DNA of 32,071 bases from Deltaproteobacteria bacterium (GTDB lineage Bacteria; Myxococcota; B64-G9). Location of the stretch: contig JAUVBB010000017.1 in assembly GCA_030591445.1 (NCBI GenBank), positions 1 to 32,071 of the forward strand, read 5' to 3'. This document shows, piece after piece, positions 9,621 to 29,426 of the stretch (the first letter of the stretch is position 1; each line of letters starts with the position of its first letter). The translations under genes and the position numbers were made by a program. A model generated the notes under the pieces. It worked only from the letters and a program-made list of their open reading frames with translations. It was not told the DNA's origin and searched no databases.

Positions 9621-9716
9621 TTAGGTTATCTGAAGCACTATGGCTGTTTGTTGGTGGCGTCAACCCGGGTGAGCTGGGAGCAATCCGGCTTCATTCATTT
9701 GACTGGGGACATTGTT

Positions 9717-12700
9717 ATGAATCGTACTTGCTGGGGTCTGGTTTGGCTGTCCGGTCTGGTTTTTTTGCTCACGCTGGGGAGTGGGGGATGTAATTCCGGC
9801 GTTAACCCGTCGAATCCTTACGATCCGGATACCTCGGCTGAAAAACAGGCCGATGCCCAGATTACCGGCATCATTATGGGCTTGGATTCCATCACTGCCT
9901 TGCCGGTGCCCTTGACCGGTGTCGAGATAAGCTACGTCAGTACGGCTGAAGTTTTGGGCCAGTCAATGACCACGGATGACAGCGGGGCGTTTGAGTTTGC
10001 CGATGTCAGACCGAGCCGCTTGTCGATTGAGATTTTCCACGCTCAGCATATTCGCCAATTTCGGGAAATTACTTTGGGTGCGGGAGAAGAACGGGTGCTT
10101 GCTATCACCATGGATCGGCTGCCCGATGTGGCCACCGATACCGTGGGCCAGGTCAGTGGCATTGCCCAAAAAAGTGGCGAGCTCAGTCTCGAGGAGGCCT
10201 TGCAAGACCACTCGGGAATCGTGGTGGAAGTGGAAGACGCGGGGGTCAGAACGGTGACCAACGCCCTGGGGGAATTCGATCTCTTCTTGAATGCCGGCAC
10301 TTACAACCTGGTTTTTTCCGCGCCCCACTACAATCTAGCCCGGCGTAACGACGTGGAAGTACTGGCGGCCGAGGCCATTGTGGTGCCGGATAGCCCGGTG
10401 GTCCTCGACCCCAACCCTGGTTTCGTGGCCGGCATGGTGGTCTTGGAGGGCATGGACGTAGACCAACACGGCGGGATTCTGCTGAGTTTGTTGGGGGGGG
10501 CCACCGGAACCACCGCCGCCAATGGCAGCTTCCGTCTGACCAATGTTGCCGCCGGCACCTATACCATGACCGCGGCCAAGGACGGTTTCGATACCCATAC
10601 CAGTACCGGGATTGTGGTCTACGGCGGTCGCGAAACCCAGGTGCCTGACATTGATTTGCCCATCTCCCGGGGCTCGGTCGCCGGTCGGGTGATGCTGGCC
10701 GGGCAAGCGGAACACGGCGGTACCATCGTCGAATTGACCGGAACGGTTCACACCGCCCAGACCAACACCCAGGGCGCTTACGAGATTAACGATATCCCGG
10801 TGGGAACCTACGAACTGGCCGCGCGCCACGAGGGATTCGCCCGGGGCGTGGTGGGCTCGGTGCTGGTCGCGGCCGGTGAAAGCACCGCGGTCGAAGAACT
10901 GAACCTGGCGCTACGCAAGGGGGATTTTGACATCAACGGCGGAGCTCCCTATACCAACGACCCCCAGGTGACCTTGACCTTGACCAGCGACGACGCGGTC
11001 CAAATGCAAATCAGTGAATTGTCTGATTTCTCGGACGCGAGCTATGTGGCCTTTGAAGTGTCCCCGAGCTTTTTATTGAGTAACGGCGACCAAGCCAAGA
11101 CGGTGTATGTGCAATACCTGGACAGCAACGCCACCCCCAGCCAGGTGTTCTCGTCCAGCATTACCTTAGACACCCAGCCTCCCGACAGTGCCAATGTGTC
11201 GATTAATGCCGGCGCGCTCTACTCCAACAACGCCGATGGCTTGGTGAACATCACCTTTTCGGCCAGCGATGCTACTTCGGGCGTCGAAAAAACCAAGATT
11301 TCCAACGACGGTGTTTTCGATAGCGAAGTTTGGCAAGACTACGTCAACGCCAAAACCCACACTTTAGATACTCCCCTGGATGATGGACTCAAGACGGTTT
11401 ATGTTTTGTACAAGGACTTTGCCGGCAATGAAACTGCCCAGGCCGTCGAAGCCAGTATCACCCTCGACCGCATATTGCCCACGCTCAATGGCTTTGTCAT
11501 CGATTGCAACGGACAATCCGATGCCGCCCAATGCAACAGCTCGGTGGTTGAGTTGGCAATTGACGCCAGCGGCGCCAGTCGCATGGCTCTGTCCAACGAC
11601 GCCGGTTTTGCCGCTGAGATCTTCGAACCCATCGCCAGCCAGCGGGCCTGGTACTTGACTCCCGGTGATGGCGACAAGTTGGTTTGGATCAAATTGTTGG
11701 ACGAGGCCGGCAACAAAACCGATGCCGCCTTCGATGGCATCTATCTGGATCAAACGGTTCCCCAAAGCCCGACCTTGATCCTGGCCGGAGGCGCCGCCTA
11801 CGTGGCCGGGCCTCTCGATGTCCAAGCGAGCTTGACCACCGCCGATGCCGACATCGACCAGATGCGCTTTGCCGTAGATGGCACCTTGGACAGCGAAGCC
11901 TGGCAGAACTATGTCGCCGCCTTTGGGGTCGATCTGCCCGAGAGCAACGGCGAGAACCGCGTGTTTGCGCAGCTTCAGGACCAGGCCGGCAATCTCTCTC
12001 CCGTGGTGGAGGCACGTATTGTGGTGGATACCACCGCGCCGCAATTGTTCCATTTCGAAGTTGGTAACGGTTCCGGCTGGGTAAACTCCGCCGATGGCTC
12101 CACCCAGGTCAGTATCAATTGTGCCGACAACCTGGTTCTTGATGCGGAAATGAATTTGCTGGTGGAAGACGAAGGCGCGCAGGTGCTGTACCAAGGCACT
12201 TATGCCGATGTGGTTCCCATAGTGTTGGGGGCGGGCGAAGTGGCCAAAACCGTTACTGCTAGTTGTAGCGATCCGGTGGGCAACCTTACCGCCTCTGCTC
12301 CGGTTGCGGTTTCGGTCGATCATAGCCCGCCTAGCATCAACTCGTTTACCCTCAACGGGGGGGCTGCCAACGAGCCACTCAGTAGTCAATCCATCACCAT
12401 TCACCTGCTAGACATCAGCGATAACTTTTCGGGAGTATTGGCCACGGCACTGTCTGATGCCAGCTTCGACTGCGCGACGGCCAACTACGCGTATCCTGGT
12501 GCCGGTGACATCGGCTACACTTTTTCCTCCGGGGAAGGCGCGCGCACCATATATCTGTGTGCCATGGATACCGCCGGCAACCGGACCAGCTCCCCGGTGG
12601 CGGCCAACAATACGGTCATGTTAGACACCGTGCCTCCCGAGATGCCTTCTTTGGTCTTGGCCGGCGGGGCGGCCTATGTGAATACCCATCTTACCCTTTC

Positions 12701-15700
12701 GGTCTCCCTGCTCTCTGCCGATGCCGCCTTCATGCGCTTTGCCGTAGACGGCACTCTGGACGACGAAGCTTGGGTGCCCTACAACGCAGCCAGCACCTTG
12801 GACCTGCCGGTAGGCGACGGGGCCAAGACCGTGTTGGCCCAGGTGCTTGATGCCGGCAACAATGTGTCTCCCATTGCCCAAGCCCAAATCACCGTGGATG
12901 GCACGGCCCCGCAGATAAGCAGCATCAGCGTGGGCGATGACTCTGGTTGGGTTACCACTGCCGATGGCTCTACCCAACTTCACCTCAGTTGCAGTGATGC
13001 CCTGGTTCCGGATTCCGAACTCAGCCTGGTGGTGGTGGATAATTTGGCCAATACCCTTTTTAGCGGTGACTACCTCGACGTGGTTCCCATTGTCTTGGGG
13101 GCGGGCGAAGTGGCCAAAACCGTCACTGCCAGCTGCAGCGATCCCATGGGCAATAGCATTAGCTCGGCGGCGATTGCGGTCTCGGTCGACCACAGTGCGC
13201 CTACCATCAACTCATTTAGCTTGAATGGGGGCGGGGCCGACGAGCCGACCAACAACCCGGCCATTACCCTGCATTTGCTCGACATCACCGACAACTTCTC
13301 CGGGGTTATGGCCACTGCCCTGGCCGAGACTTCTTTTGATTGCGAGACGGCCAACTATGCCTATCCCACCTCTGGCGATGTCGGCTACAGCTTGTCCGCC
13401 GGCGAGGGCAGCCGCCGACTGTACCTGTGTGCCATCGATCTGGCCGGCAACGTCAGCGCGGCGGCGGTGGCCTCGGACAATACCGTCTTTCTTGATACCG
13501 TGGTTCCCGATATGCCGGTGCTGGAACTGGCCGGTGGGGCGGCCTATGTCGATACCCATCTCACCCTTTCGGTCTCCCTGCTCTCTGCCGATGCGGCCTT
13601 CATGCGTTTTGCCACTGACGGCACCCTGGACGACGAAACTTGGGTGCCCTACAACGCAGCCGGCACGCTGGACCTGCCGGTAGGCGACGGGGCCAAGACC
13701 GTACTGGCCCAGGTGCTGGATGCCGGCTCCAATGTATCTCCCATTGCCCAAGCCCAGATCACCGTGGATGGCACGGCCCCGCAGATGAGCAGCATCAGCG
13801 TGGGCGATGACTCCGGTTGGGTCACCACAGCTGATGGCTCTACCCAACTTCACATCAATTGCAGTGATGCCCTGGTTCCGGACTCAGAACTCAGCCTGGT
13901 GGTGGTGGATAATTTGGCCAGTACCCTTTTTAGCGGTGACTACCTGGACGTGGTTCCCATTGTCTTGGGAGCGGGCGAAGAAGCCAAAACCGTCACCGCC
14001 ACCTGCAGCGATCCCATGGGCAATAGCATAAGCTCGGCGGCGATTGCGGTCTCGGTCGACCACAGTGCGCCTTCCATTAACTCGTTTAGCCTGAATGGGG
14101 GCGGGGCCGACGATCCTACCAACAACCCGGCCATTACCGTGCATTTGCTCAACATCACCGACAACTTCTCCGGGGTCATGGCCACCGCCTTGGCCGAGAC
14201 CTCCTTTGATTGCGCGACCGCCAACTATGCCCATCCCACCAGTGGCGATGTCGGCTACAGCTTGTCCGCCGGCGAGGGCAGCCGCCGACTGTACCTGTGT
14301 GCCATCGATCTGGCCGGCAATGTCAGCGCGGCGGCGGTGGCCTCCGACAATACCGTCTTTCTTGATACCGTAGTCCCCGATATGCCGGTGCTGGAACTGG
14401 CCGGTGGGGCGGCTTATGTCGATACCCATCTCACCCTTTCGATCTCCCTGCTGTCTGCCGACGCAAGCTTTATGCGCTTTGCCATAGACGGCACCCTGGA
14501 CGACGAAGCTTGGGTACCGTACAACGCGGCCGGCACGTTGGACTTATCCGCAGGTGACGGGGCCAAGACCGTACTGGCCCAGGTGCTGGATGCCGGCTCC
14601 AATGTATCTCCCATTGCCCAAGCCCAGATCATCGTGGATGGCACGGCCCCGCAGATGAGCAGCATCAGCGTGGGCGATGACTCCGGCTGGGTCACCACTG
14701 CCGATGGCTCTACCCAACTTCACATTAGTTGCAGTGATGCGCTGGCCTTGAATGCAGAGATCAACCTGACCATCATCGATGGAGACATGGCGACTCTCTA
14801 CAGTGGAGACTATCTGGATGTGGTTCCCATCGTCTTGGGCGCGACCGAAGAAGCCAAAACTGTCACCGCCACTTGCAGCGATCCCATTGGCAATAGCGTC
14901 AGCTCGGCTGCCATTGCGGTATCGGTTGACCACACGGCGCCCAGTATCAATTCTTTCACCCTCAACGGGGGCGCGGCCAACGAGGCCACCGCCAGCCCCT
15001 CGGTCACCTTGCATTTGTTGGATGTGGATGACAATTTCTCCGGGGTCAGTGGCACGGCATTGGCAGAGACTTCTTTTGATTGCACCACCGCGACTTATTC
15101 CTACCCAAGCTCGGGGGATGTCGGCTTCACGCTCTCGGCCAGCGACGGTCAGCGCTATGTTTATTTGTGTGCCCGCGATGTGGCCGGCAATGTGACTGCC
15201 TCCGCGGTGGCTTCGGACAATGCCGTGGATTTGGATACCCAAACCCCGCTGGCGCCGACCGTTGTTTTGGCCGGCGGAACCGACATCACCCGGCTCACCA
15301 GCATTGGCCTGAGCATCACCCCACCCGAGGTCGGATTGACGCTAGAACTTTCTGGCGATATCGACGAAGTGGGCAGTTATTCGGCCGATGCGCCGCCGGC
15401 TACGGTAACGCTTGCCGGGGATGACGGCCAGTTGACGGTTTCGGCCATTGTAATTGATGCCGCCGGCAACCGCTCCAGCAGTGCCTCGGACTGGATTACC
15501 CTTGATACCGAAGCCCCCTATTTGTACGCGGTGGCTATCGACGACAACGAGCCTTTCGCCACCACCGCGGATGGCGAGGTCACCCTGACGCTGGCCGCCT
15601 CCGATGCCCTAAGCGGCGTCAATCGCATGCAGATATCAACCGATGGCGTCTGCGACACGGAACCGGTGGTGGATTTTGAGCAGGAGGTCACCTTCTATCT

Positions 15701-18695
15701 GGATGACCCGGCCAACCAGGGTCTGAAACATGTCTATGTGTGCTTCCTGGATATCGCCGGCAATGTCTCCGACCCGGCCCATGACCAGGTAAGCCTTGAT
15801 TATACTCCGCCCGTCATCAACAACTTTTCGCTCAATGGCGAAACCCCCGACGAGCCCACCAATTCGCGTGAAATCCTTGCCCGGGTCGCTGTCATCGATG
15901 GCATCGCCGGGCAGGCGGCGGTGGCCTTATCGGATGCCAGCTTTTCTTGCAGCGATGCCCAGTACACCTATCACCCCTTTCAGAATCATCCCTTCTTGCT
16001 CTCGGAGGGAGAGGGTCAGCGCTTCTTGTACCTGTGCGCCCAGGACGGCGCCGGCAACTACACGGCCTCGGCGGTGGAGTCGACCAACGCGGTGTGGCTC
16101 GATACCACCGCCCCCGAGACGCCCTCCATGCAAGTCGCCGACTTCGACGGCGACGGTTTTGCCCTCAGCGAGGAACAGGTGGAACTGCGCTGGAACTTCA
16201 CCGCCGAAACCAGTGGCTATTTGATCCGACGCTTCGTGGTTGACGTCGATAGTTCCACCCAACAAATTGCCGATCTCGATGCGTCGGTCCACGGATTGAT
16301 CGACGACGTTACGGCCACGGTGGGAAATACGCATCTGTATCAAATTCGTGCTTACGATGCGGTGGGCAACGTCTCAAACTGGTCTTCGGTGGTGGAGGCC
16401 AACCCCTTCGATCCCATCGATGGCGTATTCTGGATTCGCTCCATCGACCTGTTGAAATTCACCTTTACCCCCAATACGGGCACTTTCTGGCAACAGGCCA
16501 CCTATTGGTGGAGCAACGTCTTATACAGCTCGTATTACCAGGTGCTGGGCAGCAATATTTTGCAGTGGGAAAGACCAGAACCTCCCGAGCGCCAGGTGAA
16601 CGAACGGTTGATGTTCAGAACCGCCAACCAGGACAACTCGCTGGTGTATGACACCTCGGTCTCCCTGCGCATCAATCAAACCAGAACCCTCGACAGCGAT
16701 GGCGACCCCGGAAAATTTACCTCCCTCGCCGTCGGTTCCGATCGAGTTGTGCACATCAGTCACTTTGATGATGATACCGACGATCTCAAATACACCACCA
16801 ACAAGCCCGGCTATTGGGTGACCTACACGGTTGACTCCCTCAATGACACCGGCACCTCGACCTCCCTGGCCCTAGACAGCAATAACAATGTGCACATCAG
16901 TTATCACTACAATACCGATAACGATTTGCGCTATGCCACCAACGCTTCCGGTGCCTGGGTGGTAACCACCGACATTGACACCGCTGCCAACGTAGGCGAT
17001 TTCTCCAGTATTGCGGTGGATAGCCAAGATTATATCCATATCGGCTACTACGATGTCACCAATACCAATCTCAAATATGCCACCAACGCGCCCGCCGGCA
17101 CTTGGTCCACCACCACCGCGGTCAATACCGGAGACTCACAAGGCCGATTCTGCTCGCTGGTGCTCGACAGCAACGACAATGCCTACATCGCCCATTTGAA
17201 TACCACCACCAAGAATATGGAACTGGCGACCAATGAATCCGGCGCGTGGGCCAGCCCAACGATCTACGGGCCCATCACTGCCACGGTCAACATATCCATG
17301 GCCATTGATCTGGCCGATAAGTTGCACATCAGCTTCTCCCCGTCACCTGGTTCTCTGTACTATGGAACCAACGCCAGCGGTGGCTGGGCGTTCGAAGAAG
17401 CCGATGGCCCCATGTCGGGTTACGGTGGCACCTCCATCGCGGTCGATGCCCAAAGCAAGGTGCACATCAGCCACCGCGAAGCCGATCATACCGAGCTGCG
17501 CTATACCACCAACCTGTCCGGGATCTGGGAATCCATCACCGTCGATAACGCAGGAGATTTGGGCCTGTTTTCTTCCCTAGCGGTAGACAACCTGGGCATC
17601 GTACATATCAGTTACAACAACACAGTGGATAAGCAGCTTCGCTATGCCAACGTGTTCACCTATCCCTGGCGAACCGAGACCCCCGACACCAGCGGAAACA
17701 AAAATTTCTCTCCCGCGGTGGCAGTCGACTCCAAGGGACATACCCACATCAGCTACATGGATACCATCGATGGTTACTTGACCTATGCCACCAACCAGGA
17801 CGGCAGCTGGCAAATCAGCGACATTGATAAGAGCGCAGTCGTGGGATTTTCTTCCTCTATTGCTATCGACGGCAAGGACTTCATCCATATCAGTTATTAT
17901 GATCAGACCGACAGCGCCCTGAAGTACATCAACAACACCGAAGGTGTTTGGACGGCCACCACCTTGGATTCGGAAGGCATCGTCGGCCAACTGACTTCTC
18001 TGGCCATCGACAGCAATGGCAAAATCCATATTGCCTACCGGGACAACACCAACCAGCGAGTGAAATATATCAACAATGTCAAAGGTTCCTGGGTGGAAAC
18101 GGCCATCTATGCCACCGACAACACCACCCTGGTTGGCATCTCCCTGGACATAGACAGCAAAGACAATATCCACATCGTCCATTATCACAACCACAACCTG
18201 TATTATTCCACCAACGCCGGCGGCTCTTGGGCCACCATAGCCGTCGATACGCCGGTACTGCCGGCTTATACCGGTATCGATCCGGCCCTGGCCATAGACA
18301 GCAACGATTTTATCCATATCAGTTACCGAGATGGCAATAACATGACCTACCTTACCAACGCATCGGGCTCACTGAAAAAAACAGAAATTGAAGTGGCGGG
18401 CGTATCCGGAAATGACTCCGATATTGCCATTGATGAAAACGACAACGTTCATATCATCTACTCCAATACCGACCTGCAGGACCTGCACTACGCCACCAAC
18501 ACCGCTGGCTATTGGCGAGTGAGCGAAATCGATGTGGTAGGCTCGGTCGGCACCAACCCCGCCGTCACCATCGACGATTTTGGCAGAATCCACACCGTCT
18601 ATCAGGACACTGACAATGCCAACATTGTCTATTCCTACGGCAAATTCGAAGGCTTCATCCCCGCCTCCTCCGACACCTTGACCTCACCCTTCTAG
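9717..18695 (+). CDS. Giant modular lipoprotein: regulatory-like domains, Ig-like array, Fn3 and double beta-propeller
   Basis: About 2992 residues. Start ATG 9717 was chosen over the upstream in-frame codon at 9648 because it gives a clean lipoprotein signal (lipobox SGGC, Cys25) with GGGGA seven bases upstream. After the lipid cysteine comes NPYDP, then about four carboxypeptidase-regulatory-like beta-sandwiches (about 45-400), a long Ig-like region (about 400-2128) with motifs such as FDINGGAPYTND and DTxPP linkers, one Fn3-like domain (about 2135-2232) and 14 propeller repeats of about 47 residues (about 2325-2982) with the pattern SLAxDSNxxxHISYxDxxxxxLxYATNxSGxW. Probably surface-exposed or periplasmic and binding glycans or proteins; no enzyme active site was seen. 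Residues about 680-1841 hold four copies of one module. The paralog at 23022-29426 has the same order with one module. Confidence 0.93.
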   Translation: MNRTCWGLVWLSGLVFLLTLGSGGCNSGVNPSNPYDPDTSAEKQADAQITGIIMGLDSITALPVPLTGVEISYVSTAEVLGQSMTTDDSGAFEFADVRPSRLSIEIFHAQHIRQFREITLGAGEERVLAITMDRLPDVATDTVGQVSGIAQKSGELSLEEALQDHSGIVVEVEDAGVRTVTNALGEFDLFLNAGTYNLVFSAPHYNLARRNDVEVLAAEAIVVPDSPVVLDPNPGFVAGMVVLEGMDVDQHGGILLSLLGGATGTTAANGSFRLTNVAAGTYTMTAAKDGFDTHTSTGIVVYGGRETQVPDIDLPISRGSVAGRVMLAGQAEHGGTIVELTGTVHTAQTNTQGAYEINDIPVGTYELAARHEGFARGVVGSVLVAAGESTAVEELNLALRKGDFDINGGAPYTNDPQVTLTLTSDDAVQMQISELSDFSDASYVAFEVSPSFLLSNGDQAKTVYVQYLDSNATPSQVFSSSITLDTQPPDSANVSINAGALYSNNADGLVNITFSASDATSGVEKTKISNDGVFDSEVWQDYVNAKTHTLDTPLDDGLKTVYVLYKDFAGNETAQAVEASITLDRILPTLNGFVIDCNGQSDAAQCNSSVVELAIDASGASRMALSNDAGFAAEIFEPIASQRAWYLTPGDGDKLVWIKLLDEAGNKTDAAFDGIYLDQTVPQSPTLILAGGAAYVAGPLDVQASLTTADADIDQMRFAVDGTLDSEAWQNYVAAFGVDLPESNGENRVFAQLQDQAGNLSPVVEARIVVDTTAPQLFHFEVGNGSGWVNSADGSTQVSINCADNLVLDAEMNLLVEDEGAQVLYQGTYADVVPIVLGAGEVAKTVTASCSDPVGNLTASAPVAVSVDHSPPSINSFTLNGGAANEPLSSQSITIHLLDISDNFSGVLATALSDASFDCATANYAYPGAGDIGYTFSSGEGARTIYLCAMDTAGNRTSSPVAANNTVMLDTVPPEMPSLVLAGGAAYVNTHLTLSVSLLSADAAFMRFAVDGTLDDEAWVPYNAASTLDLPVGDGAKTVLAQVLDAGNNVSPIAQAQITVDGTAPQISSISVGDDSGWVTTADGSTQLHLSCSDALVPDSELSLVVVDNLANTLFSGDYLDVVPIVLGAGEVAKTVTASCSDPMGNSISSAAIAVSVDHSAPTINSFSLNGGGADEPTNNPAITLHLLDITDNFSGVMATALAETSFDCETANYAYPTSGDVGYSLSAGEGSRRLYLCAIDLAGNVSAAAVASDNTVFLDTVVPDMPVLELAGGAAYVDTHLTLSVSLLSADAAFMRFATDGTLDDETWVPYNAAGTLDLPVGDGAKTVLAQVLDAGSNVSPIAQAQITVDGTAPQMSSISVGDDSGWVTTADGSTQLHINCSDALVPDSELSLVVVDNLASTLFSGDYLDVVPIVLGAGEEAKTVTATCSDPMGNSISSAAIAVSVDHSAPSINSFSLNGGGADDPTNNPAITVHLLNITDNFSGVMATALAETSFDCATANYAHPTSGDVGYSLSAGEGSRRLYLCAIDLAGNVSAAAVASDNTVFLDTVVPDMPVLELAGGAAYVDTHLTLSISLLSADASFMRFAIDGTLDDEAWVPYNAAGTLDLSAGDGAKTVLAQVLDAGSNVSPIAQAQIIVDGTAPQMSSISVGDDSGWVTTADGSTQLHISCSDALALNAEINLTIIDGDMATLYSGDYLDVVPIVLGATEEAKTVTATCSDPIGNSVSSAAIAVSVDHTAPSINSFTLNGGAANEATASPSVTLHLLDVDDNFSGVSGTALAETSFDCTTATYSYPSSGDVGFTLSASDGQRYVYLCARDVAGNVTASAVASDNAVDLDTQTPLAPTVVLAGGTDITRLTSIGLSITPPEVGLTLELSGDIDEVGSYSADAPPATVTLAGDDGQLTVSAIVIDAAGNRSSSASDWITLDTEAPYLYAVAIDDNEPFATTADGEVTLTLAASDALSGVNRMQISTDGVCDTEPVVDFEQEVTFYLDDPANQGLKHVYVCFLDIAGNVSDPAHDQVSLDYTPPVINNFSLNGETPDEPTNSREILARVAVIDGIAGQAAVALSDASFSCSDAQYTYHPFQNHPFLLSEGEGQRFLYLCAQDGAGNYTASAVESTNAVWLDTTAPETPSMQVADFDGDGFALSEEQVELRWNFTAETSGYLIRRFVVDVDSSTQQIADLDASVHGLIDDVTATVGNTHLYQIRAYDAVGNVSNWSSVVEANPFDPIDGVFWIRSIDLLKFTFTPNTGTFWQQATYWWSNVLYSSYYQVLGSNILQWERPEPPERQVNERLMFRTANQDNSLVYDTSVSLRINQTRTLDSDGDPGKFTSLAVGSDRVVHISHFDDDTDDLKYTTNKPGYWVTYTVDSLNDTGTSTSLALDSNNNVHISYHYNTDNDLRYATNASGAWVVTTDIDTAANVGDFSSIAVDSQDYIHIGYYDVTNTNLKYATNAPAGTWSTTTAVNTGDSQGRFCSLVLDSNDNAYIAHLNTTTKNMELATNESGAWASPTIYGPITATVNISMAIDLADKLHISFSPSPGSLYYGTNASGGWAFEEADGPMSGYGGTSIAVDAQSKVHISHREADHTELRYTTNLSGIWESITVDNAGDLGLFSSLAVDNLGIVHISYNNTVDKQLRYANVFTYPWRTETPDTSGNKNFSPAVAVDSKGHTHISYMDTIDGYLTYATNQDGSWQISDIDKSAVVGFSSSIAIDGKDFIHISYYDQTDSALKYINNTEGVWTATTLDSEGIVGQLTSLAIDSNGKIHIAYRDNTNQRVKYINNVKGSWVETAIYATDNTTLVGISLDIDSKDNIHIVHYHNHNLYYSTNAGGSWATIAVDTPVLPAYTGIDPALAIDSNDFIHISYRDGNNMTYLTNASGSLKKTEIEVAGVSGNDSDIAIDENDNVHIIYSNTDLQDLHYATNTAGYWRVSEIDVVGSVGTNPAVTIDDFGRIHTVYQDTDNANIVYSYGKFEGFIPASSDTLTSPF
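11755..15240 (+). repeat. Four tandem copies of a 290-residue Ig-like module
   Basis: In-frame units run 11755-12630 (876 bp, most divergent), 12631-13500, 13501-14370 and 14371-15240 (each exactly 870 bp). Each encodes LAGGAAYV, the D-G-T-L-D-(D/S)-E-x-W segment, a GWVTTADGSTQ segment, the DVVPIVLGA segment and an FSLNGG/FTLNGG domain with paired cysteines. The second to fourth copies are nearly identical over long stretches: 13741-13800 and 14611-14670 differ at one base of 60. This points to recent duplication or gene conversion and to a region at risk of assembly collapse. Confidence 0.92.
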
Positions 18696-19648: not shown

Positions 19649-19748
19649 GTCATCCCCGAAATGTTTCTGTCGGGGACCCAGTTTTCTCTAACATCCTGTA
19701 TTAGCGGGTTATTCGCGAGATCCCCGACAGAAACATTTCGGGGATGAC
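19649..19748. repeat. REP/BIME-like inverted repeat pair followed by a T-run
   Basis: Arms 19649-19676 and 19721-19748 are perfect 28-bp reverse complements with a 44-base centre. Each arm is itself a small palindrome, TCCCCGA ... TCGGGGA, around ATGTTTCTG. Two head-to-head imperfect palindromes are the form of a REP pair (BIME). The right arm is followed by a run of T at 19752-19759, so the transcript would form a long stem able to end transcription after the thioredoxin gene. No REP-associated transposase is present in the window. Confidence 0.7.
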
Positions 19749-20194: not shown

Positions 20195-20249
20195 TGTTCG
20201 ACAAAATAAAATTGTCTATTACGATTGACAAAAAAGTTTTTGTCGAACA
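20195..20249. promoter_or_regulatory. Operator-like array with -35 box upstream of the AAA+ ATPase
   Basis: A perfect 12-bp inverted repeat, TGTTCGACAAAA (20195-20206) and TTTTGTCGAACA (20238-20249), encloses a second dyad TTGTC/GACAA (20212-20216, 20227-20231). Together they give four alternating half-sites of GACAA/TTGTC. A perfect TTGACA -35 (20225-20230) overlaps the third; 17 bases later comes CATGAT (20248-20253) as a weak -10. A repressor bound here would block the promoter. A cruciform or terminal repeat of a lost element is the alternative. Confidence 0.5.
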
Positions 20250-21442
20250 TGATGGACAGTATGGAAATCGATATTCTTGAAATAGCAAGTACTTGGAGTT
20301 TTTGGGACCGTCCAGTGCCCCCTTCCGTCCCTCGCCTAATCAAATCACCAGATACCCTAAGGGATTCTATTTGTTTGGGTATCCAGGGAGTTCGTCGCTG
20401 TGGCAAGTCTACTCTTCTGCAGCAACTGATAGGGCGATATGATCTTGACCCAGCTCAATGTGTTTTTCTTAACTTTGAAGATCCCCGATTGACCAAAGCC
20501 TTGTCCTTCGAGACCCTTGACCTGTTGGTTATGCAATTTAGAGCGCGCCATCCCAAGGCCGATCGCTTGTATTTCTTCCTCGACGAGATTCAATGGGTGG
20601 AAGGTTGGCAACGCTGGTTAGTGACTCAGCTCGAACGGCCCCGGGGAAACGTGTTTGTGACCACCGGATCCAATGCCCGTTTACTTTCTGGCGAATTATC
20701 CACCATGCTGACCGGTCGTCACCTGACCATGGAATTATATCCATTCGACTACCAGGAGCTGCTGTCGGCAGACCCCAACACCACTTGGAATGACTACCTG
20801 GATCATGGCGGTTTTCCAGAGCCTTTATCGATGTCTGATGGCGACAGCCTGCGTAGGCAATATTTTCTCGATATCGTCGAACGAGACATCCGAGAAAGAA
20901 TCCGAGCCCGCTCCAGCCTTCCCATTCGCCAGGTCATCCAGATGGCATACGAATCTGCCGGTTCAGAGCTGAGCCTGCGTCGCATTGCGGCCGCCACCGG
21001 CATTGCCGTCGATACCGCGGCCAGCTATCTTGAGGCAGCCGAGGCGGCCTATCTGTTGTTTGCTTGCCCCTTCTTCGCCTTTTCTGAACGCAAACGCGCC
21101 CGGCGCAACAAGAAGTACTATCCCATTGATACCGGCCTCAGGCGGGTGGTTATCAACAAAACGGGGAGTGATCGGGGCAAGGCACTCGAATCTTCGGTGT
21201 ACCTTAGCTTGCGTCGTCACTTCGATCAGGTTTGCTATTTCAGAGAAAACGGAGAAGTAGATTTTGTGGTATCCCCGGCCGGCAAACCAATCCCCATCCA
21301 GGTAAGCCTTGATCCCCCCAGCGAACGCCATTTCCGGGCATTGGATGGGTTTTACGAACGCTTTCCCAACGCTTCAGAAGCAGTTTTTATCACTGGCGAC
21401 AATCCTCAGGCCACCTTGTCGGACTTGATTCACAACCATTGA
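20249..21442 (+). CDS. AAA+ ATPase with DUF4143 domain
   Basis: About 397 residues from ATG 20249. The N-terminal ATPase has Walker A GVRRCGKST (about 47-55), Walker B LYFFLDE (about 107-113), a sensor-like TTGSN (about 138-142) and the family motif DHGGFPEP. The C-terminal DUF4143 part (about 215-375) contains GKALESSVYLSL and YFRENGEVDFVV, matching the PD-(D/E)xK-like fold proposed for this family; nuclease activity is not established. The exact role of these ATPases is unknown and many are laterally spread. No ribosome binding site is visible for ATG 20249, 20252 or 20261 or TTG 20225; with the predicted promoter, transcription could begin near 20260, so leaderless translation from ATG 20261 is possible. 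It stands alone beside a transposase remnant, which suggests acquisition by transfer (inference). Confidence 0.85.
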   Translation: MMDSMEIDILEIASTWSFWDRPVPPSVPRLIKSPDTLRDSICLGIQGVRRCGKSTLLQQLIGRYDLDPAQCVFLNFEDPRLTKALSFETLDLLVMQFRARHPKADRLYFFLDEIQWVEGWQRWLVTQLERPRGNVFVTTGSNARLLSGELSTMLTGRHLTMELYPFDYQELLSADPNTTWNDYLDHGGFPEPLSMSDGDSLRRQYFLDIVERDIRERIRARSSLPIRQVIQMAYESAGSELSLRRIAAATGIAVDTAASYLEAAEAAYLLFACPFFAFSERKRARRNKKYYPIDTGLRRVVINKTGSDRGKALESSVYLSLRRHFDQVCYFRENGEVDFVVSPAGKPIPIQVSLDPPSERHFRALDGFYERFPNASEAVFITGDNPQATLSDLIHNH

Positions 21443-21505
21443 TGGACGAGAAAACACTTTGCAAAGATTCTTTCAGCAGATGATCTAGTGAGCTAAACTC
21501 GTAGG

Positions 21506-21528
21506 TTCAGAAGGGTTCCACCTGCTCC
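21506..21528. repeat. 23-bp direct repeat, left copy
   Basis: An exact 23-bp copy of 23021-23043. The right copy is the 3' end of the second giant lipoprotein gene, including its stop codon; this left copy lies in the hydrolase leader and is a stranded fragment of that gene end. The two enclose 1492 bp holding only the alpha/beta hydrolase gene. Similarity stops at the repeat edge on the giant-gene side. Confidence 0.85.
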
Positions 21529-21556
21529 TGAGAGGGAGAATGAAGGAGCGCTTTAG

Positions 21557-23005
21557 ATGATGAGCAGGATAGATTTCATTAGGTCGATGGTTCATGCCGG
21601 TTGGGCCCTGCTCCTGACCGGCTTGCTGGCCAGTCAGTTTTCTTGCTTTGTCTTTACGGAGCAGGTTCGTGAGGAGCCCTTGTCCGAGGTGGATCTCACC
21701 ATCGATGAAGAAATCGCTGGGTTGCCGGGACTGGAAATCCGGGCCCTGCCAGACCCGGTTCACGGGGGTCAGATTCGCTGGCTGGAAGCCGGACAGTTCC
21801 AGGCGGGGGAGCCCCCGCTGCTGCTGGTGCACGGCTTGGGGTCTGCGGGCATGCGGGATTTCTATCCCCTGCTGGGGGAGCTGACAAAGAAACACCGGGT
21901 GCTGTTGCTGGATCTGCCCGGTTTTGCCCGCTCTGAAAAGGCCAACATGGTTTATACTCCTTCAAGTTATGCCGCGCTTTTGGCGCAACTGATTGAGACC
22001 CAGGTCCAGGGCCCGGTGGACCTGCTGGGACACTCCTTGGGAGGGGCCACGGTGGTGGAACTGGCGGGAAGCCGTCCCCAGTTGGTGCGCAGACTGGTCC
22101 TCCTGGACGTGGCGGTGATCTTGCATCGGGAGGCCCTGGTGGCCTCTTACATGTCCCAGGGCATGGCCGGCCTATCCAAAATCAATAAGGACCTGGGCCA
22201 TGTCAGCTATAGCATTGCCAGGACCCTGCTGGAGCCGGTTCGTGGCCTCGAACCGGATTTGGTCCAGCTCTTGACATCCGCCCGATCCAGAAAGCTGGCC
22301 CTGTCGAGCGATCCTATGCGCATCGCCACGCTGTCGTTCATATTGCACAATTTCGGCCCGGCCTTGTCCCGCATCGAGGCGCCCACCTTGATCCTGTGGG
22401 GCCGACAAGACACAATCGCACCCTTGCGAACCGCACACCTCTTGCACAGCCGTATTGCGAAGAGCAAGCTGATCATCATGGAGGGAGTCAAACACGAACC
22501 CCAGATCGAGGCCCCCGAAGCGGTTTTGCTTGAGCTGCAAAACCACCTGGAGAAAGAGGAGCTTGACTTGGGCCTTGAAAAAGCTCCGCCGGCCGGCCTG
22601 GCCAGCCGGGAGGCCCGCTGTGACCAGCAGTCGGATGTGGTGTTTGAGGGCGGCTATAGAGTCATCGAGATCAAAAACTGCGAGCGGGTGTTTCTAAACC
22701 GAGTATGGGCCAGCCGGATCTTGATCGAATCCAGCTCGGTGAAAATGCTGGACCCGACCCTGGTTGCGGATCCCACGGTGCCGGGACCGGCTTTACTGGT
22801 CAAGGACTCAAATCTGATAGTCACCGGGGGACGACTCGGGGGCCGGCCGGCCATGAAGTTGGAGCATAGCAATCTGGACATGGCTGGCACCCGGCTCTAC
22901 GCTGATCAAGATCCGGTGTGGCAGTCTGCAGACAGCCGAGCCCTGTTCTCGGTGACCGAGATGAAGACCCAAAATGCTGTTTTGCATTTGCACGCGGAGT
23001 ACTAG
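21557..23005 (+). CDS. Alpha/beta hydrolase with signal peptide and beta-helix-like C-terminal domain
   Basis: Probably an exported serine hydrolase (esterase/lipase-like; substrate unknown). N-terminal hydrophobic signal at about 12-29 ends at Cys30; the lipobox (QFSC) is poor, so lipidation is uncertain. The hydrolase core (about 70-330) has HGLGSAG oxyanion motif at His92, nucleophile elbow GHSLGG with Ser160, acid Asp285 in GRQDTIAP and His313 in VKHEP, so the triad looks complete. After about residue 340 comes a tail of about 140 residues with short strand-turn repeats (IKNCERVFLNR, LLVKDSNLIVTGG, MKLEHSNLDMAGT) that resembles a right-handed beta-helix. This fusion is unusual for the fold. 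ATG 21557 has AAGGAG eight bases upstream. The gene converges on the second giant lipoprotein with 16 bases between stops, and is bracketed by 23-bp direct repeats. Confidence 0.88.
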   Translation: MMSRIDFIRSMVHAGWALLLTGLLASQFSCFVFTEQVREEPLSEVDLTIDEEIAGLPGLEIRALPDPVHGGQIRWLEAGQFQAGEPPLLLVHGLGSAGMRDFYPLLGELTKKHRVLLLDLPGFARSEKANMVYTPSSYAALLAQLIETQVQGPVDLLGHSLGGATVVELAGSRPQLVRRLVLLDVAVILHREALVASYMSQGMAGLSKINKDLGHVSYSIARTLLEPVRGLEPDLVQLLTSARSRKLALSSDPMRIATLSFILHNFGPALSRIEAPTLILWGRQDTIAPLRTAHLLHSRIAKSKLIIMEGVKHEPQIEAPEAVLLELQNHLEKEELDLGLEKAPPAGLASREARCDQQSDVVFEGGYRVIEIKNCERVFLNRVWASRILIESSSVKMLDPTLVADPTVPGPALLVKDSNLIVTGGRLGGRPAMKLEHSNLDMAGTRLYADQDPVWQSADSRALFSVTEMKTQNAVLHLHAEY

Positions 23006-23020
23006 GACCCCGAGCTCAGC

Positions 23021-23043
23021 TTCAGAAGGGTTCCACCTGCTCC
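23021..23043. repeat. 23-bp direct repeat, right copy (3' end of the giant lipoprotein gene)
   Basis: Exact partner of 21506-21528, same orientation. Read on the minus strand it encodes the last residues EQVEPF and the stop of the second giant lipoprotein. Confidence 0.85.
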
Positions 23044-26000
23044 GGCGGGTGCGAGGTCAAGAGGCCCTGGAAGATTCCTTGGGTATAGGCCAGATCGGAT
23101 ACCCCGTTTTTTCGGTAGGCGATATGAACCCGATCCAGAGAGTCTAAGCCAATGCTGGTATAGCTGCGTTGCCCCAGACCCACGGTCGGGTCTAGCTCGG
23201 TGCTGCGCCAAGTGCCATGGGCATTGGTGGCATACATGAGATAGCCCCAATCGTCTTGCACATAACTGATGTGGACCTGATCCAGGCTGTCGATGGCAAT
23301 GGAGGTAAACCGGCCCACGCCAAAGGCCGAGGCCACGATGGTGACTTCCCAGCTACCCGAGGCGTTGGTGGCATAGCGCAGGTCGTTGTAGGTGTTGTCG
23401 TAGTAGGCAATGTGCACTTTGTCCGCCGAATCGATGGCCATGGAGACAAAGGAGCCCACATAACTGTCCGAATCGATGACCGTCTCCACAAAGGAACCCG
23501 ATCGGTTGGTCAGGTAGTGCACGCCTTCTTGGCTGCCCGCATCATAAACGATGTGCACGTAATCCTGGCTGTCGATGGCCAGGTCGTTGTGCACCTCGCC
23601 GGAAGACGATAGCGAGACCAGGTCCTGGATGATCCACGGCGCACCCGGTCCCGGTATGCGGTAGGCGTAACGCATTGCCGAAAACATGGCACTGAAGTAG
23701 GACAGGTGCACGAATCCCGCCGAATCCACGCCGATACCGCTGGGTACCTGGCCGGCGGTGAAAACCTGTTCCACTGTCTCCAGGGTCCAAGGCCCATAGG
23801 CATCGGTGGCATATTCGATGGCAGAAGTGGACTGGTTGCCGTAGCTGATATGGAGAAGATCGGACTGGTCGACAGTGATGGAAGCAAACAATCCCACCCA
23901 GTGGCCCATAAAGTCCCCGTCGTCCACGGTCTCGATGGTCCAGGCGCCCGAAGCGTTGTGGGCGTGCTCCAGGGTGACGGTGGTTTCATCAAAATAAGCC
24001 ACGTGCACCACATCGTTGCTGTCCAAGGCCAACGACGCATAAGAGCCAGTGCTGCCGGCCGAGTCGATGATCTCGTCCGACCAAAGGGGTTTGGCAACAA
24101 TCGCGTGCAACAGATCCTGGTATTCGGCCGAGTGGTAGGTGAGATGGGGGCGGCCGGTGCTGTCCAAGGCGATGGCGGCGAACTGTCCCACATCGCCGGT
24201 AACGTGCAGGTCCATGGTCTCCCAGGAGCCGCTCTCGTTGGTGGCATAGCGCAAATCGTTCAAGCTCCCCACCCCGTAACCGATGTGGGCCTTATCGTTT
24301 TCGTCCAGCACCAAAGAGGTGTAATAGCCGGCGGCGTCGGCGGCGTCGGCCACCTGGATCACCCAGGCTCCGGAGGCGTTGGTGGCGTAGTAGAGATCGT
24401 CAAGACGCAGGTAGGAGATGTGAACCTTTCCCTGGTGGTCTAAGGCCAGCGATGAGTAGCTGCCGGGACTGCCAACAGCGTTGTCCACGGTTTGGGTCAC
24501 CCACGCGCCGGAGGCATTGGTGGTGTACTCGAGACTGGTCGGCGCGCCCCAGTCCTTGTGACTGATGTGCACCTTGTCGGCGCTGTCTATGGCCAGCGAA
24601 GAATACTGGCCCGGCCAATCGGTATCGTCCGCTAGTTCGGTGACCCAGCTGCCCCCGGCGTTGTTGGCCACCTGCAGATCCCGGTCTATCTCCCCATAGA
24701 AGCTGATCCAGGCGGCGCCGGTGCTGTCGATACCGATGGAGGTGTCTCGGTAGCCCGGATCGCCCGTGTCCTCTACCAACTCGTTGGCCCAGGAACCGGA
24801 AGTGTTGGTGGCGTAGCGTATGTCACGGTTGGTGTAATCCTGGTAACAGATGTGCACGAAGCCGAGCGGATCCACGAAGATGTCGGTGGACCGGCCGGTG
24901 TCGCCCACGCTATCAACCGTGACCGCCACCCAGGTGCCCGAGGCGTTGGTGGCATATTTCAGGTCGGCGTTGGTCGCATCATAGTAGCTTACGTGCAAGG
25001 CGTCGTTGGCATCGATGACCATGGCGGAATACAGGCCCACGTCATCTACCGAATCCACCGTCAGCCGGGAATGGAAGCCCAAGGGCACCACGCTTTGGTA
25101 GACCAAGGAATTGTCCTGGTTTCGGGTCAAAAAAAGGAGTTCTTCGTTGAAGCGGGTAGGGTCCACGGCCGGCCCCGGGCGCAACCAGGAAAAGGTGTTG
25201 TCGATCATGGGGTCCCGGTTGGGCATCCCCAGCAGGTCTTCATTTTGATAAGTGATGCTCATGGTGAAGGTGCCCGGATTGGGTTTGAACGCATAGCGAA
25301 AATCGTCCTTGTCCCGGATCCAGAAGGCGTATTCCACCGGATCGAAAGTCAGCGCGTCTACCACCAGGGACCAGGGTGATTCGTTGCCCACTTCGTCAAT
25401 CGCCTTGATGCGGTAGTACAATCTCTTGCCCACCTGGGCGCTCACGTCGTCAGCCAGGTTGATTTGGGCCGGAAGAATGTTGCCGTCCCGCAGCACGAAG
25501 TCACCCTCTCCCTCCACGAAACGCTCCAACACCAGATGATCGGTGTCCGGGGGCACGCTCCAGGCCAGTTCCACCGTGTCGCGGGCCAAGGCGAAGCCGT
25601 CGCCGTCGATGTCCGCCACCTGCAGGGCGGGGATGGCCGGCGAGTTGGTGTCGAGTTCCACCGTGTTGGAGGCCAGCGCCGCGCTCAGCACGTTGCCGGC
25701 ATCGTCTTTGGCGCATAGGTACACTTGCCTCAGGCCGTCGCCGGGAGACAGAATGAACGGAATATCGGCCTGGGCCGGGTAGACGTATTGGGCGCTATCA
25801 CAATTGAACGAGGCATCGGCCAAAGCGCTGGCTACCCCCACCCGGTCGGACACCGCGTCGCGCAGGTCTACCCGCACCACCACGTCGCGCGAATTGGTGG
25901 GCGAGGCGGGCACCCCGTCGTTGAGTCGATAACCGACGATTTCAGGCGGGGTGTAGTCCAGGGTGATGGAATCTTCGGCCGCATTGGCCACCGTGGTGGC

Positions 26001-29000
26001 GTTGCCCGCCAGGTCGATGAATTGCACATACACGGTCTTGGATCCCTCGGTTCCTACGGCGGCCAGGGTGTGGGATCGTACCTGCTCGAAAGGGATGGGC
26101 GCTTCGTCGAACACGGTATCGTTGGAGATGCGCATGGAGTCCACCCCGCTGACCAGGTCGGTGGCCGACAGGGTCAGAGAGACCTCACCCAGGGACTCGG
26201 TGGCGTATTGCTGGCCCCCGTTGATCACCACCGTGGTGTTGTAGGGCGGCTGGGTGTCGAGCACGATGGACGCCGAGCTGGGCAGGGAACGGTTGCCCGC
26301 CGGGTCGATCACCAGGGCGGTGAGCGTCTTGGTCCCGTCGCTGCCATTCAAAGTCACGGTGGCCGGCGGATTGTCCGCCGCGTGGGTGCCCTGCTCGTCG
26401 ATGTCCCCGGATAGTTCCAGGCTGAGGCCAGTCTCGAACACGGTAACCGACAAGTTGGCATTTACATTGTTGGTCAGGTTGGCTCCGCCCGCCAAGCTTA
26501 GCTGGGGCGCCTGGGGGGCCGAGGTGTCCAGCCCCACTGCATTGTCCGAGCTGACCGACGTGCCGGTCACGTTGCCGGCAAGATCTTTAGCGCAAAGGTA
26601 CAGCCGTCTGTTGCCATCACCGGCGGTCAGGGTATAACCCACGTCGCCCGAAGCGGGATATACGTAATTGGCGGTCTGGCAGTCGAACACACCTTCGGAC
26701 AGGGCCGTGCTTTGCACTCCGGCAAAATTGTCGCTGATGTCGGCCAAGAGAACCGTGATGGAGCGGCTGTTGGTGGGCTCGTCGGGCGTGCCGCCGTTGA
26801 GGGTAAAGCTATTGATCTGTGGCGGCGTGTGATCCAACGAGACCAAAGCCGGTGCGGCCTGGTCCATGTTGCCGGCCGGGTCCGTGCAGGAGACGGTGAC
26901 GGTTTTTGGGATCTCATTGGCACCCAACACCACCGGCACCACGCTTTGGTAGGCCCCGCTGTACAAAACGTTGGCCAGTTCGTCCACGATGTTTAGGGCA
27001 AGCTGGGCATCCGGCGCCTGGGCGTCTGCGCACTGCACGCTTACGCTGGTCGAGCCATCGGGGCTGGTCACCCAGCCCGTGCCCGTCCCAAGCAGCACGG
27101 AGGCAAGCTGGGGAATGGTGCTATCCAAGGTGAGGGCAACGCTGGCCATGGGAGACAGGTTGAGCGCATTATCTCTCACCTGGACCAGCACCGTCTTGGG
27201 CCCGTCGCCGCCCGGCAAAGACCTTTGGAAAGACGACTGCAGCGCTTCCCAGGTCTCGCTGTCCAACACCCCGTCCATGGCCATCCGCATAGAGCCCGCA
27301 GCCGGTGCCACCAGGGTTATATCCACCAGGGGATCCGACACATAGGCCGCGCCTGCGGCTACCGTGAGCAGCGGCATGTCGGGCGGCGCGGAGTCGAGTT
27401 CAATGCCGTCGGCCACCGCAGTGGTCTTGTTGCCGGCCCGGTCCATCAGCTTGATCCACACCTCTTTGGGGCCGTCGCCCGGGCTAAGATACCAGGCTTT
27501 TGCCGGTGAGAAGGCCTCGTAGACCTCCACGGTGAATCCTGGATCATTGGACAAGGCCATGAAAGCCGCATCAGCATCCGCTTGGATGTCCAGCACCACC
27601 ACCGGGGAATTGCAGTGGGACGGGTCGTCAAGGCCGGCACAGTCGATGAAAAAACCGTTCAACTGGGGCAAGACCCGATCGAGCGTGATCTGCGCCTCGA
27701 CGGAATTTAGGGTCTCATTGCCGGCATAGTCCCGGTAATGCACGTACACGCTCTTTTGCTCATCCACCAGCGGGTCTAAAAGCGTATGGCTCATGGCCGG
27801 GACAAAGTTTTGCCAGGGCTCGGTGTCGAACTGCCCGTCGTTGGACAGGCGCATCTGCCAGATGCCGGTGCCGGGCAGCGGATCGGAAGCGCTGAAGGTC
27901 AAAGTCACCATGCCGTCGGGGTTGTTGGCAAACTGGGCCCCGGCGTTGATCTGCAGCAGGGCATTTTCGGGTGGGTGGGTGTCGAGCTTGATGGAGGAAA
28001 TCAATATCTCCGACAGGGTGTCATCGCTCATCCGAAACTGCACGTTGACCGTCTTGTCGCCGTCGCCGTCTGACAGGGTGAATGGCACATCGGCCTGAAA
28101 GGGTACCCAACTGGCATCGCTAAAAGTGGGATCTTCGCTGATGCGCATGTCGATGGCATCTTCGGCCGAAAGGGACAGAGACACCAAAGGATCGTTGGTG
28201 AACAGGGCGCCGCCGTTGATGTCGAAATCCCCCTGGCGCACCGCCAGGGTGGCCAAATTCACCGCTGACACGGTGTTGGCCTCGACCACCACCGTTCCCA
28301 GCTGGGCCGGTACGTAGCCTTGGTGCGAGGCATGTACCGTATACGATCCCACCGGTACGCCTGCCATGAGGTAGTCGCCAGCGCTGGTGGTGGTGTCGGA
28401 ATAGGGCGTGCCGCTCACCTCCACCGTGGTGCTGGAGTGCTCCTGGCTGCCGGCCAGCAATACCGTTCCCCGCACGGACCCCCGTGAAATGGCCAGCGGA
28501 ATCAAGTCTTCCACTGTGTCTTGCCCGCCGACCACCATCACCCCGCGTACGGTTTGGGTGTCAAAGCCCGTCTTGCTGGTGGTCAGGATATAGCTGCCGG
28601 CGGCCACCCCGGCTATCCGGAACGAACCGTCCGGCGCGCTGGTGGTGGTCTCGCTGCCCAACAGACTGAGGATCACATCCCCATGTCCGTTTTCGGCTGC
28701 CCCTTCCAGGAACACCACGCCCACCACCGCCCCCGGATTGGGATCCAGTACCACCGGGCTATCGGGAATCTCGGTATCCTCGCCCGCGCTGACCGCCACC
28801 GCGTTGCGCCGGGCAATGTTGTAATGCTTGACGGAAAACACAATGTTGTAGGTACCGGCGTTCAAGTACAGGTCGAAGCGCCCGGCCATGTTGGTCACCG
28901 TGCGCACGCCGGCGTCTTCCACCTCCACCACGATGCCCGAGTGGTCTTGCAAATCCAGTTCCTGGGCCAACTCACCGCTCTTGTGCGCCCAGCCGAACAG

Positions 29001-29426
29001 GTGGCCGGCCGTGTCGGTGGGCGTCTCGGGAATGGGATCCAGGGTGACGGTCAGGTCCAAGCTGTTACCAGGGAGAAAAAAGAGGCTTCTGATCTGACGC
29101 AGATGCCGCGGGTGGGTCACCTCGATGGTCGAGTTTCCCGGATGCAGATCGTTGAACTCGAATCGACCGTCAGCCCCGGTGACCGCACTAGCAGGCGATA
29201 CCAAGGCACCATTTTCCAGCGTAACGGTGGCGCCCTCTAAAAGCACCGGTTCACCGCCGTCTTGCCCGCTTTCGCCATAGACCACCCCCATCAACTGGGC
29301 TTTGGCCTGGTCTTCGGGAGGGGTATTCGGATCATACGGATTGTTCGAATCCAACGAAGTGTTACAGCCGACGACCAACAGAACGACGATGAGCGCAAAC
29401 TGGGCGCACAATCCTCTCACGTTCAT
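23022..29426 (-). CDS. Giant modular lipoprotein, shorter paralog
   Basis: A 2134-residue paralog of the protein at 9717-18695. ATG 29426 follows GGAAAGGGG. Lipoprotein signal with VVGC (Cys21), then the shared NPYDP motif, about four carboxypeptidase-regulatory-like domains (about 38-400), an Ig-like series (about 400-1260), an Fn3-like domain with ADIDGDGFAL, and 14 propeller repeats (about 1456-2123). It has only one copy of the 290-residue Ig module (about 26520-27390), against four in the larger paralog. Repeats 7 and 14 lack the TNxSG motif, which places a boundary between two seven-bladed propellers. Probably on the cell surface or in the periplasm and binding an unknown ligand. Two GH130 genes lie upstream on the same strand with a 121-bp gap, so a link to glycans is possible but unproven. 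Confidence 0.92.
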   Translation of the reverse strand: MNVRGLCAQFALIVVLLVVGCNTSLDSNNPYDPNTPPEDQAKAQLMGVVYGESGQDGGEPVLLEGATVTLENGALVSPASAVTGADGRFEFNDLHPGNSTIEVTHPRHLRQIRSLFFLPGNSLDLTVTLDPIPETPTDTAGHLFGWAHKSGELAQELDLQDHSGIVVEVEDAGVRTVTNMAGRFDLYLNAGTYNIVFSVKHYNIARRNAVAVSAGEDTEIPDSPVVLDPNPGAVVGVVFLEGAAENGHGDVILSLLGSETTTSAPDGSFRIAGVAAGSYILTTSKTGFDTQTVRGVMVVGGQDTVEDLIPLAISRGSVRGTVLLAGSQEHSSTTVEVSGTPYSDTTTSAGDYLMAGVPVGSYTVHASHQGYVPAQLGTVVVEANTVSAVNLATLAVRQGDFDINGGALFTNDPLVSLSLSAEDAIDMRISEDPTFSDASWVPFQADVPFTLSDGDGDKTVNVQFRMSDDTLSEILISSIKLDTHPPENALLQINAGAQFANNPDGMVTLTFSASDPLPGTGIWQMRLSNDGQFDTEPWQNFVPAMSHTLLDPLVDEQKSVYVHYRDYAGNETLNSVEAQITLDRVLPQLNGFFIDCAGLDDPSHCNSPVVVLDIQADADAAFMALSNDPGFTVEVYEAFSPAKAWYLSPGDGPKEVWIKLMDRAGNKTTAVADGIELDSAPPDMPLLTVAAGAAYVSDPLVDITLVAPAAGSMRMAMDGVLDSETWEALQSSFQRSLPGGDGPKTVLVQVRDNALNLSPMASVALTLDSTIPQLASVLLGTGTGWVTSPDGSTSVSVQCADAQAPDAQLALNIVDELANVLYSGAYQSVVPVVLGANEIPKTVTVSCTDPAGNMDQAAPALVSLDHTPPQINSFTLNGGTPDEPTNSRSITVLLADISDNFAGVQSTALSEGVFDCQTANYVYPASGDVGYTLTAGDGNRRLYLCAKDLAGNVTGTSVSSDNAVGLDTSAPQAPQLSLAGGANLTNNVNANLSVTVFETGLSLELSGDIDEQGTHAADNPPATVTLNGSDGTKTLTALVIDPAGNRSLPSSASIVLDTQPPYNTTVVINGGQQYATESLGEVSLTLSATDLVSGVDSMRISNDTVFDEAPIPFEQVRSHTLAAVGTEGSKTVYVQFIDLAGNATTVANAAEDSITLDYTPPEIVGYRLNDGVPASPTNSRDVVVRVDLRDAVSDRVGVASALADASFNCDSAQYVYPAQADIPFILSPGDGLRQVYLCAKDDAGNVLSAALASNTVELDTNSPAIPALQVADIDGDGFALARDTVELAWSVPPDTDHLVLERFVEGEGDFVLRDGNILPAQINLADDVSAQVGKRLYYRIKAIDEVGNESPWSLVVDALTFDPVEYAFWIRDKDDFRYAFKPNPGTFTMSITYQNEDLLGMPNRDPMIDNTFSWLRPGPAVDPTRFNEELLFLTRNQDNSLVYQSVVPLGFHSRLTVDSVDDVGLYSAMVIDANDALHVSYYDATNADLKYATNASGTWVAVTVDSVGDTGRSTDIFVDPLGFVHICYQDYTNRDIRYATNTSGSWANELVEDTGDPGYRDTSIGIDSTGAAWISFYGEIDRDLQVANNAGGSWVTELADDTDWPGQYSSLAIDSADKVHISHKDWGAPTSLEYTTNASGAWVTQTVDNAVGSPGSYSSLALDHQGKVHISYLRLDDLYYATNASGAWVIQVADAADAAGYYTSLVLDENDKAHIGYGVGSLNDLRYATNESGSWETMDLHVTGDVGQFAAIALDSTGRPHLTYHSAEYQDLLHAIVAKPLWSDEIIDSAGSTGSYASLALDSNDVVHVAYFDETTVTLEHAHNASGAWTIETVDDGDFMGHWVGLFASITVDQSDLLHISYGNQSTSAIEYATDAYGPWTLETVEQVFTAGQVPSGIGVDSAGFVHLSYFSAMFSAMRYAYRIPGPGAPWIIQDLVSLSSSGEVHNDLAIDSQDYVHIVYDAGSQEGVHYLTNRSGSFVETVIDSDSYVGSFVSMAIDSADKVHIAYYDNTYNDLRYATNASGSWEVTIVASAFGVGRFTSIAIDSLDQVHISYVQDDWGYLMYATNAHGTWRSTELDPTVGLGQRSYTSIGLDSLDRVHIAYRKNGVSDLAYTQGIFQGLLTSHPPEQVEPF

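Follow-up and report, generated by a model that had tools for sequence, protein, structure and literature searches.

A hydrolase gene between direct copies of a lipoprotein gene 3' end: a candidate single insertion with target duplication

The window, that is, the whole stretch of 32,071 nucleotides analyzed here, contains two paralogous genes for giant lipoproteins arranged tail to tail, giant gene 1 (9648-18695) and giant gene 2 (23022-29426). Genes for a thioredoxin, an ATPase, and a hydrolase, as well as a REPIN, are located between them. The features of the hydrolase locus are the following:

20225-21442, plus strand: AAA_14/DUF4143 ATPase gene, the upstream neighbor; its best relatives are only 30-38% identical
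21506-21528, plus strand: left copy of a 23-bp repeat, a duplicate of the giant gene 2 3' end, non-coding here
21529-21556, plus strand: 28-bp hydrolase leader, from the left repeat to the ATG, with AAGGAG at 21543-21548 as a plausible ribosome-binding site
21557-23005, plus strand: alpha/beta-hydrolase gene, 482 aa (Pfam: Abhydrolase_1, 3e-23; Abhydrolase_6, 2e-20)
23006-23020, no strand: 15-bp spacer from the hydrolase stop codon to the right repeat; no terminator was found here
23021-23043, minus strand: right copy of the 23-bp repeat, the native 3' end of giant gene 2, with the stop codon at 23022-23024
23022-29426, minus strand: giant gene 2, encoding a lipoprotein of 2134 aa with CarboxypepD_reg-like domains and a C-terminal array of ~47-aa repeats

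At 12200-15100, giant gene 1 contains a tandem array of long, nearly identical repeats with a period of 870 bp. The REPIN-like element, located at 19649-19748, is an inverted pair of the 28-bp repeat GTCATCCCCGAAATGTTTCTGTCGGGGA, for which 94 matches with at most 3 mismatches were found in this genome. The neighborhood of the hydrolase locus is not conserved in family members. No usable synteny was found in relatives for the hydrolase, the ATPase, the giant gene, or the host gene at L138, one of the additional loci described below.

The sequence TTCAGAAGGGTTCCACCTGCTCC at 21506-21528 is repeated at 23021-23043 with 23/23 identity, in the same orientation, and at a distance of 1515 bp. A chance origin was rejected, as the expectation for any exact 23-bp repeat in 32 kb is only ~7e-6 (arithmetically, ~n^2/2 x 4^-23). 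In 822 kb of this genome, scanned for exact direct repeats of at least 18 bp with copies 0.1-8 kb apart, this pair was the sole isolated one outside coding repeats and a CRISPR-like array. The right copy spans the last codons of giant gene 2, its stop codon, and one base past the stop. The protein encoded by giant gene 2 ends with PPEQVEPF, and three paralogues from the same genome terminate at the equivalent place, also with PF: giant gene 1 (SSDTLTSPF) and the copies in C268 (MTSQTTPF) and C460 (SIIRTTPF). By comparison with these paralogues, giant gene 2 ends natively in the right copy, which makes the left copy the additional one. The possibility that the left copy is part of a longer duplicated gene end, raised in the earlier note, was rejected, since similarity stops at 23 bp and the 100-bp flanks resemble each other no more than shuffled sequences do. 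The same note had suggested a search for the 23-bp site next to other cargo; no further copy of the site was found, either in the same genome with up to 3 mismatches allowed or, as an exact copy, in two public collections (genome_contigs and viral_contigs). No tRNA or known RNA was found at the repeat site. Folds at both repeats were no better than those of shuffled sequences, giving no hairpin or palindromic core, and no inverted repeats pairing the two ends of the interval, and no terminal inverted repeat, were found.

The interval between the repeats contains one credible gene. The encoded hydrolase has the catalytic-type motifs GHSLGG, WGRQD, and GVKHEP and a hydrophobic N-terminus, and its nearest solved structures are lipase/esterase-type hydrolases. 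Its relatives are only distant, with the best ones showing ~30-34% identity over the core, and for its C-terminal extension of ~150 aa (22553-23002) one weak match was found among 146 genomes of the phylum. Plasmid and phage relatives are also distant, being less than 35% identical among the best matches listed; mobile kin of the hydrolase on plasmids or phages was rejected, with no close homologue that would show movement. Foreign codon usage was looked for and not seen: at the 53rd percentile for this genome, the gene is ordinary and carries no mark of foreign origin. No sigma-70-like promoter was found from 21400 to 23200; expression is thus probably by read-through from the co-directional upstream ATPase gene. 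No recombinase, integrase, or transposase was found inside the interval, and no integron integrase was found among the window genes scanned. The description in the earlier note, with identical repeats, the lipoprotein stop codon and last codons in the right copy, and a 1.5-kb interval holding one gene and no recombinase, was confirmed. Its proposal of a passively mobilized cassette is not supported: the searches gave no further 23-bp site, no inverted termini, and no close hydrolase homologue, and the codon usage is ordinary.

The reading that we prefer, with a probability of about 0.5, is that the hydrolase locus results from a single capture event with target duplication. The hydrolase gene would have entered the convergent gap between the ATPase gene and giant gene 2 by a single insertion, and this insertion would have duplicated 23 bp of the giant gene 3' end. 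Giant gene 2 would have been kept intact, terminating in the right copy, while the left copy would mark the other edge of the insert. The gene would have arrived with its ribosome-binding site and without a recognizable promoter, which makes read-through from the upstream gene probable. We infer both that the hydrolase is a newcomer and by which molecular route it came. The likely route would not involve a dedicated recombinase: a small DNA fragment would have been captured after circularizing, by crossover at a short sequence identical to that of the gene end, or else during the fill-in repair of a staggered break. In Escherichia coli, linear DNA circularizes and then undergoes a single crossover (PMC3240628), and in three species repeats, most of them shorter than 30 bp, flank 10-18% of variable segments (PMC2884548). 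A circle matching the gene end over a short length would account for the direct orientation, the downstream position of the second copy, and the loss of similarity shortly after the stop codon, at the point where donor and recipient would diverge. The single insertion is supported by the exact repeat with unrelated flanks, the native right copy, and the compact one-ORF insert. The average codon usage of the hydrolase counts against it, and no empty site was seen.

Gene-end repeats were also found elsewhere in this genome. Isolated direct repeats with copies 0.25-10 kb apart were searched for in 1.28 Mb (~19% of the genome), using simple longest-ORF gene calls and inspection of the candidates by eye. 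In total, 51 such repeats were found, including 39 inside coding repeats and 12 others. Seven of these 12, the window and six others, have one copy at a gene 3' end:

Window: 23 bp, 100% identity
C460: 52 bp, 94% identity
C128: 41 bp, 100% identity
C18: 55 bp, 94.5% identity
C46: 97 bp, 96% identity
C54: 71 bp, 94% identity
C52: 42 bp, 95% identity

Of the other five, two scored low, one is an intergenic pair in C54, one a REP-type repeat, and one consists of tandem paralogue starts. In six gene-end cases, including the window, the second copy lies downstream, contains no credible coding sequence, and is separated from the first by other DNA; the exception is C52, with the second copy upstream. 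Six of the repeats extend 1-7 bp beyond the stop codon, and that of C128 ends inside the last codons. The host gene in C18 was taken to be the plus-strand ORF 952-1566, preferred over a longer minus-strand ORF by its match to Pfam DUF427. Genes bracketed by direct repeats of gene 3' ends include one with a weak ExbD-like match (L068, 1516-2602), an ankyrin gene (L130, 12262-14409), and beta-lactamase-like and GH43 genes (L138, 4249-8202); at L136 (9417-13865), the repeats bracket the host gene itself. No gene-end cases were found in 0.4 Mb of a relative from the same family (G001), which is weak evidence given the small sample.

The two copies in the window have no differences. In five other cases, 16 differences between copies were found, 9 of them synonymous and 10 at third codon positions. 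In a dead copy decaying neutrally, fewer of the changes would be synonymous, so this excess, small as the numbers are, hints at divergence between donor and recipient or at a once-functional second copy. At the protein level, a screen of gene C-termini against N-termini and middles did not discriminate: non-coding hits on the same stretch numbered 3 each for the C-termini and the N-termini, with 3 and 2 for the two middle segments.

The scan for isolated repeats, run for the inverted orientation, gave no gene-end cases. The contrast of seven direct cases with zero inverted ones supports single insertion and disfavors orientation-blind copying. The position of the repeat ends just past the stop codon counts against single insertion, being unexplained by random target duplication. 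So does the difference of the other cases from the window: their repeats are 41-97 bp long and 94-100% identical, and two of them surround a Y1 transposase gene, so a different mechanism may apply to the window.

The main rival to single insertion, although itself unlikely, is a short templated copy, in which replication or repair copied 23 bp of the giant gene end upstream of a resident hydrolase gene that never moved. The shortness of the duplicate, its unrelated flanks, and the native-like codon usage are all consistent with such an event. It predicts equal frequencies of inverted and direct copies, at odds with the scan; a further argument against it is that the duplicate directly borders a compact interval holding one gene.

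A rather unlikely reading, which would take in the other gene-end cases as well, is an uncharacterized insertion route of this lineage with a preference for gene 3' ends, where the final 20-100 bp of the gene, to a point shortly beyond its stop codon, would be duplicated. Passenger genes would enter by this route with the host gene undamaged, the hydrolase would be one product, and Y1/REP elements may be the engine in some cases. If the pattern holds in closed genomes, it would represent gene-safe gain of single genes without a dedicated recombinase. If such a route is real, small gene acquisitions could be dated and counted by the sequence signature of their short duplicated gene tails, and the tie between Y1/REP elements and gene-end duplication would be testable.

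The earlier note had offered two alternative footprints, integration at the 3' end of a gene and insertion accompanied by target duplication; the latter fits best. Site-specific integration, improbable here, would require a recombinase that is no longer present; the 23 bp would then be the attachment core, and the element would have restored the gene end. The block of identity from the last codons to one base past the stop suits this mechanism and resembles known 3'-end integration sites such as trmE, the site of SGI1 (PMC8409611). No integrase was found in the window, no second 23-bp site was found in the searches described above, and the other gene-end cases have unrelated sequences. Equally improbable is the remnant of a tandem duplication, where a second giant gene, or its end together with the hydrolase gene, was formerly present on the left and has been lost by deletion, apart from its last 23 bp. 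The direct orientation would be expected, and at L138 weak protein-level similarity reaches beyond the DNA repeat; the proportion of synonymous differences in the five other cases also points this way. At the hydrolase locus, the complete identity and the abrupt end of the similarity on both sides argue against it.

The transposase genes in C460 and C128 are of the REP-associated tyrosine (Y1) type and belong to six similar copies in the genome (L120-L125). In C460 (L047, 4854-6219) the Y1 gene lies between 52-bp direct copies of a host gene 3' end, and in C128 (L125, 1221-2476) between 41-bp ones. All Y1 copies with a readable left flank (C460, C128, C404, and C172) are located at or just after the stop codon of a gene. 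On one edge of several copies there are short tandem repeats that combine host sequence with the end of the element, for example, AAACCAAGGGACGGA in C404. The hydrolase could be a non-autonomous relative of these insertions, a very improbable reading to which the preference of the family for gene ends and the gene-end repeats around two of its six copies give some support. The 9-mer CTGAGAGGG, which abuts the left repeat (21528) and is also present at the left edge of the C460 element, speaks for this reading too, but is a post hoc match and may be host sequence. The family end motif GGACGGAGG and its complement have no exact occurrence in the window, and no Y1 transposase gene was found in the hydrolase interval. 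As it lacks the ends of the family, the insert is not assigned to it here. An assembly artefact, conceivable in a fragmented metagenome bin of 610 contigs, is scarcely credible, as a join error is unlikely to place an intact 1.5-kb gene between two perfect copies and both neighboring genes are intact.

Single insertion with target duplication, the preferred reading, can be compared with several known systems. Integron cassettes are also compact genes without a recognizable promoter, whereas the repeats in the window are a host gene end and no integrase was found among the window genes scanned; no attC was seen, and folding gave nothing notable at either repeat. Known members of IS200/IS605 reportedly do not generate larger target duplications (PMC2817692). 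The Y1 family of this genome, located at gene ends and sometimes with gene-end duplications, provides a likeness to IS200/IS605 and REP-associated Y1 elements, from which the window insert differs in having neither a Y1 gene nor the family ends. SGI1 integrates at the 3' end of the protein gene trmE (PMC8409611). In islands of this type the direct repeats take in a gene 3' end and leave the gene intact, as in the window; unlike them, the window has no integrase or recurrent attachment site and holds one gene only. Long and variable target duplications at inserted genes were described in Helicobacter pylori (Nobusato et al., 2000, cited in PMC1643837 and PMC3031569). These insertions were reportedly recognized by comparison of strains with and without the insert and often involve restriction-modification genes. 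The window case differs in its 23-bp length, its hydrolase gene, its location at a gene 3' end, and in being known from one allele. The likeness lies in the arrangement: in H. pylori, extra genes reside between direct copies of host sequence that vary in length, and no dedicated transposase is involved; in the window, a gene is bracketed by direct repeats of host sequence with neither a transposase nor inverted termini inside.
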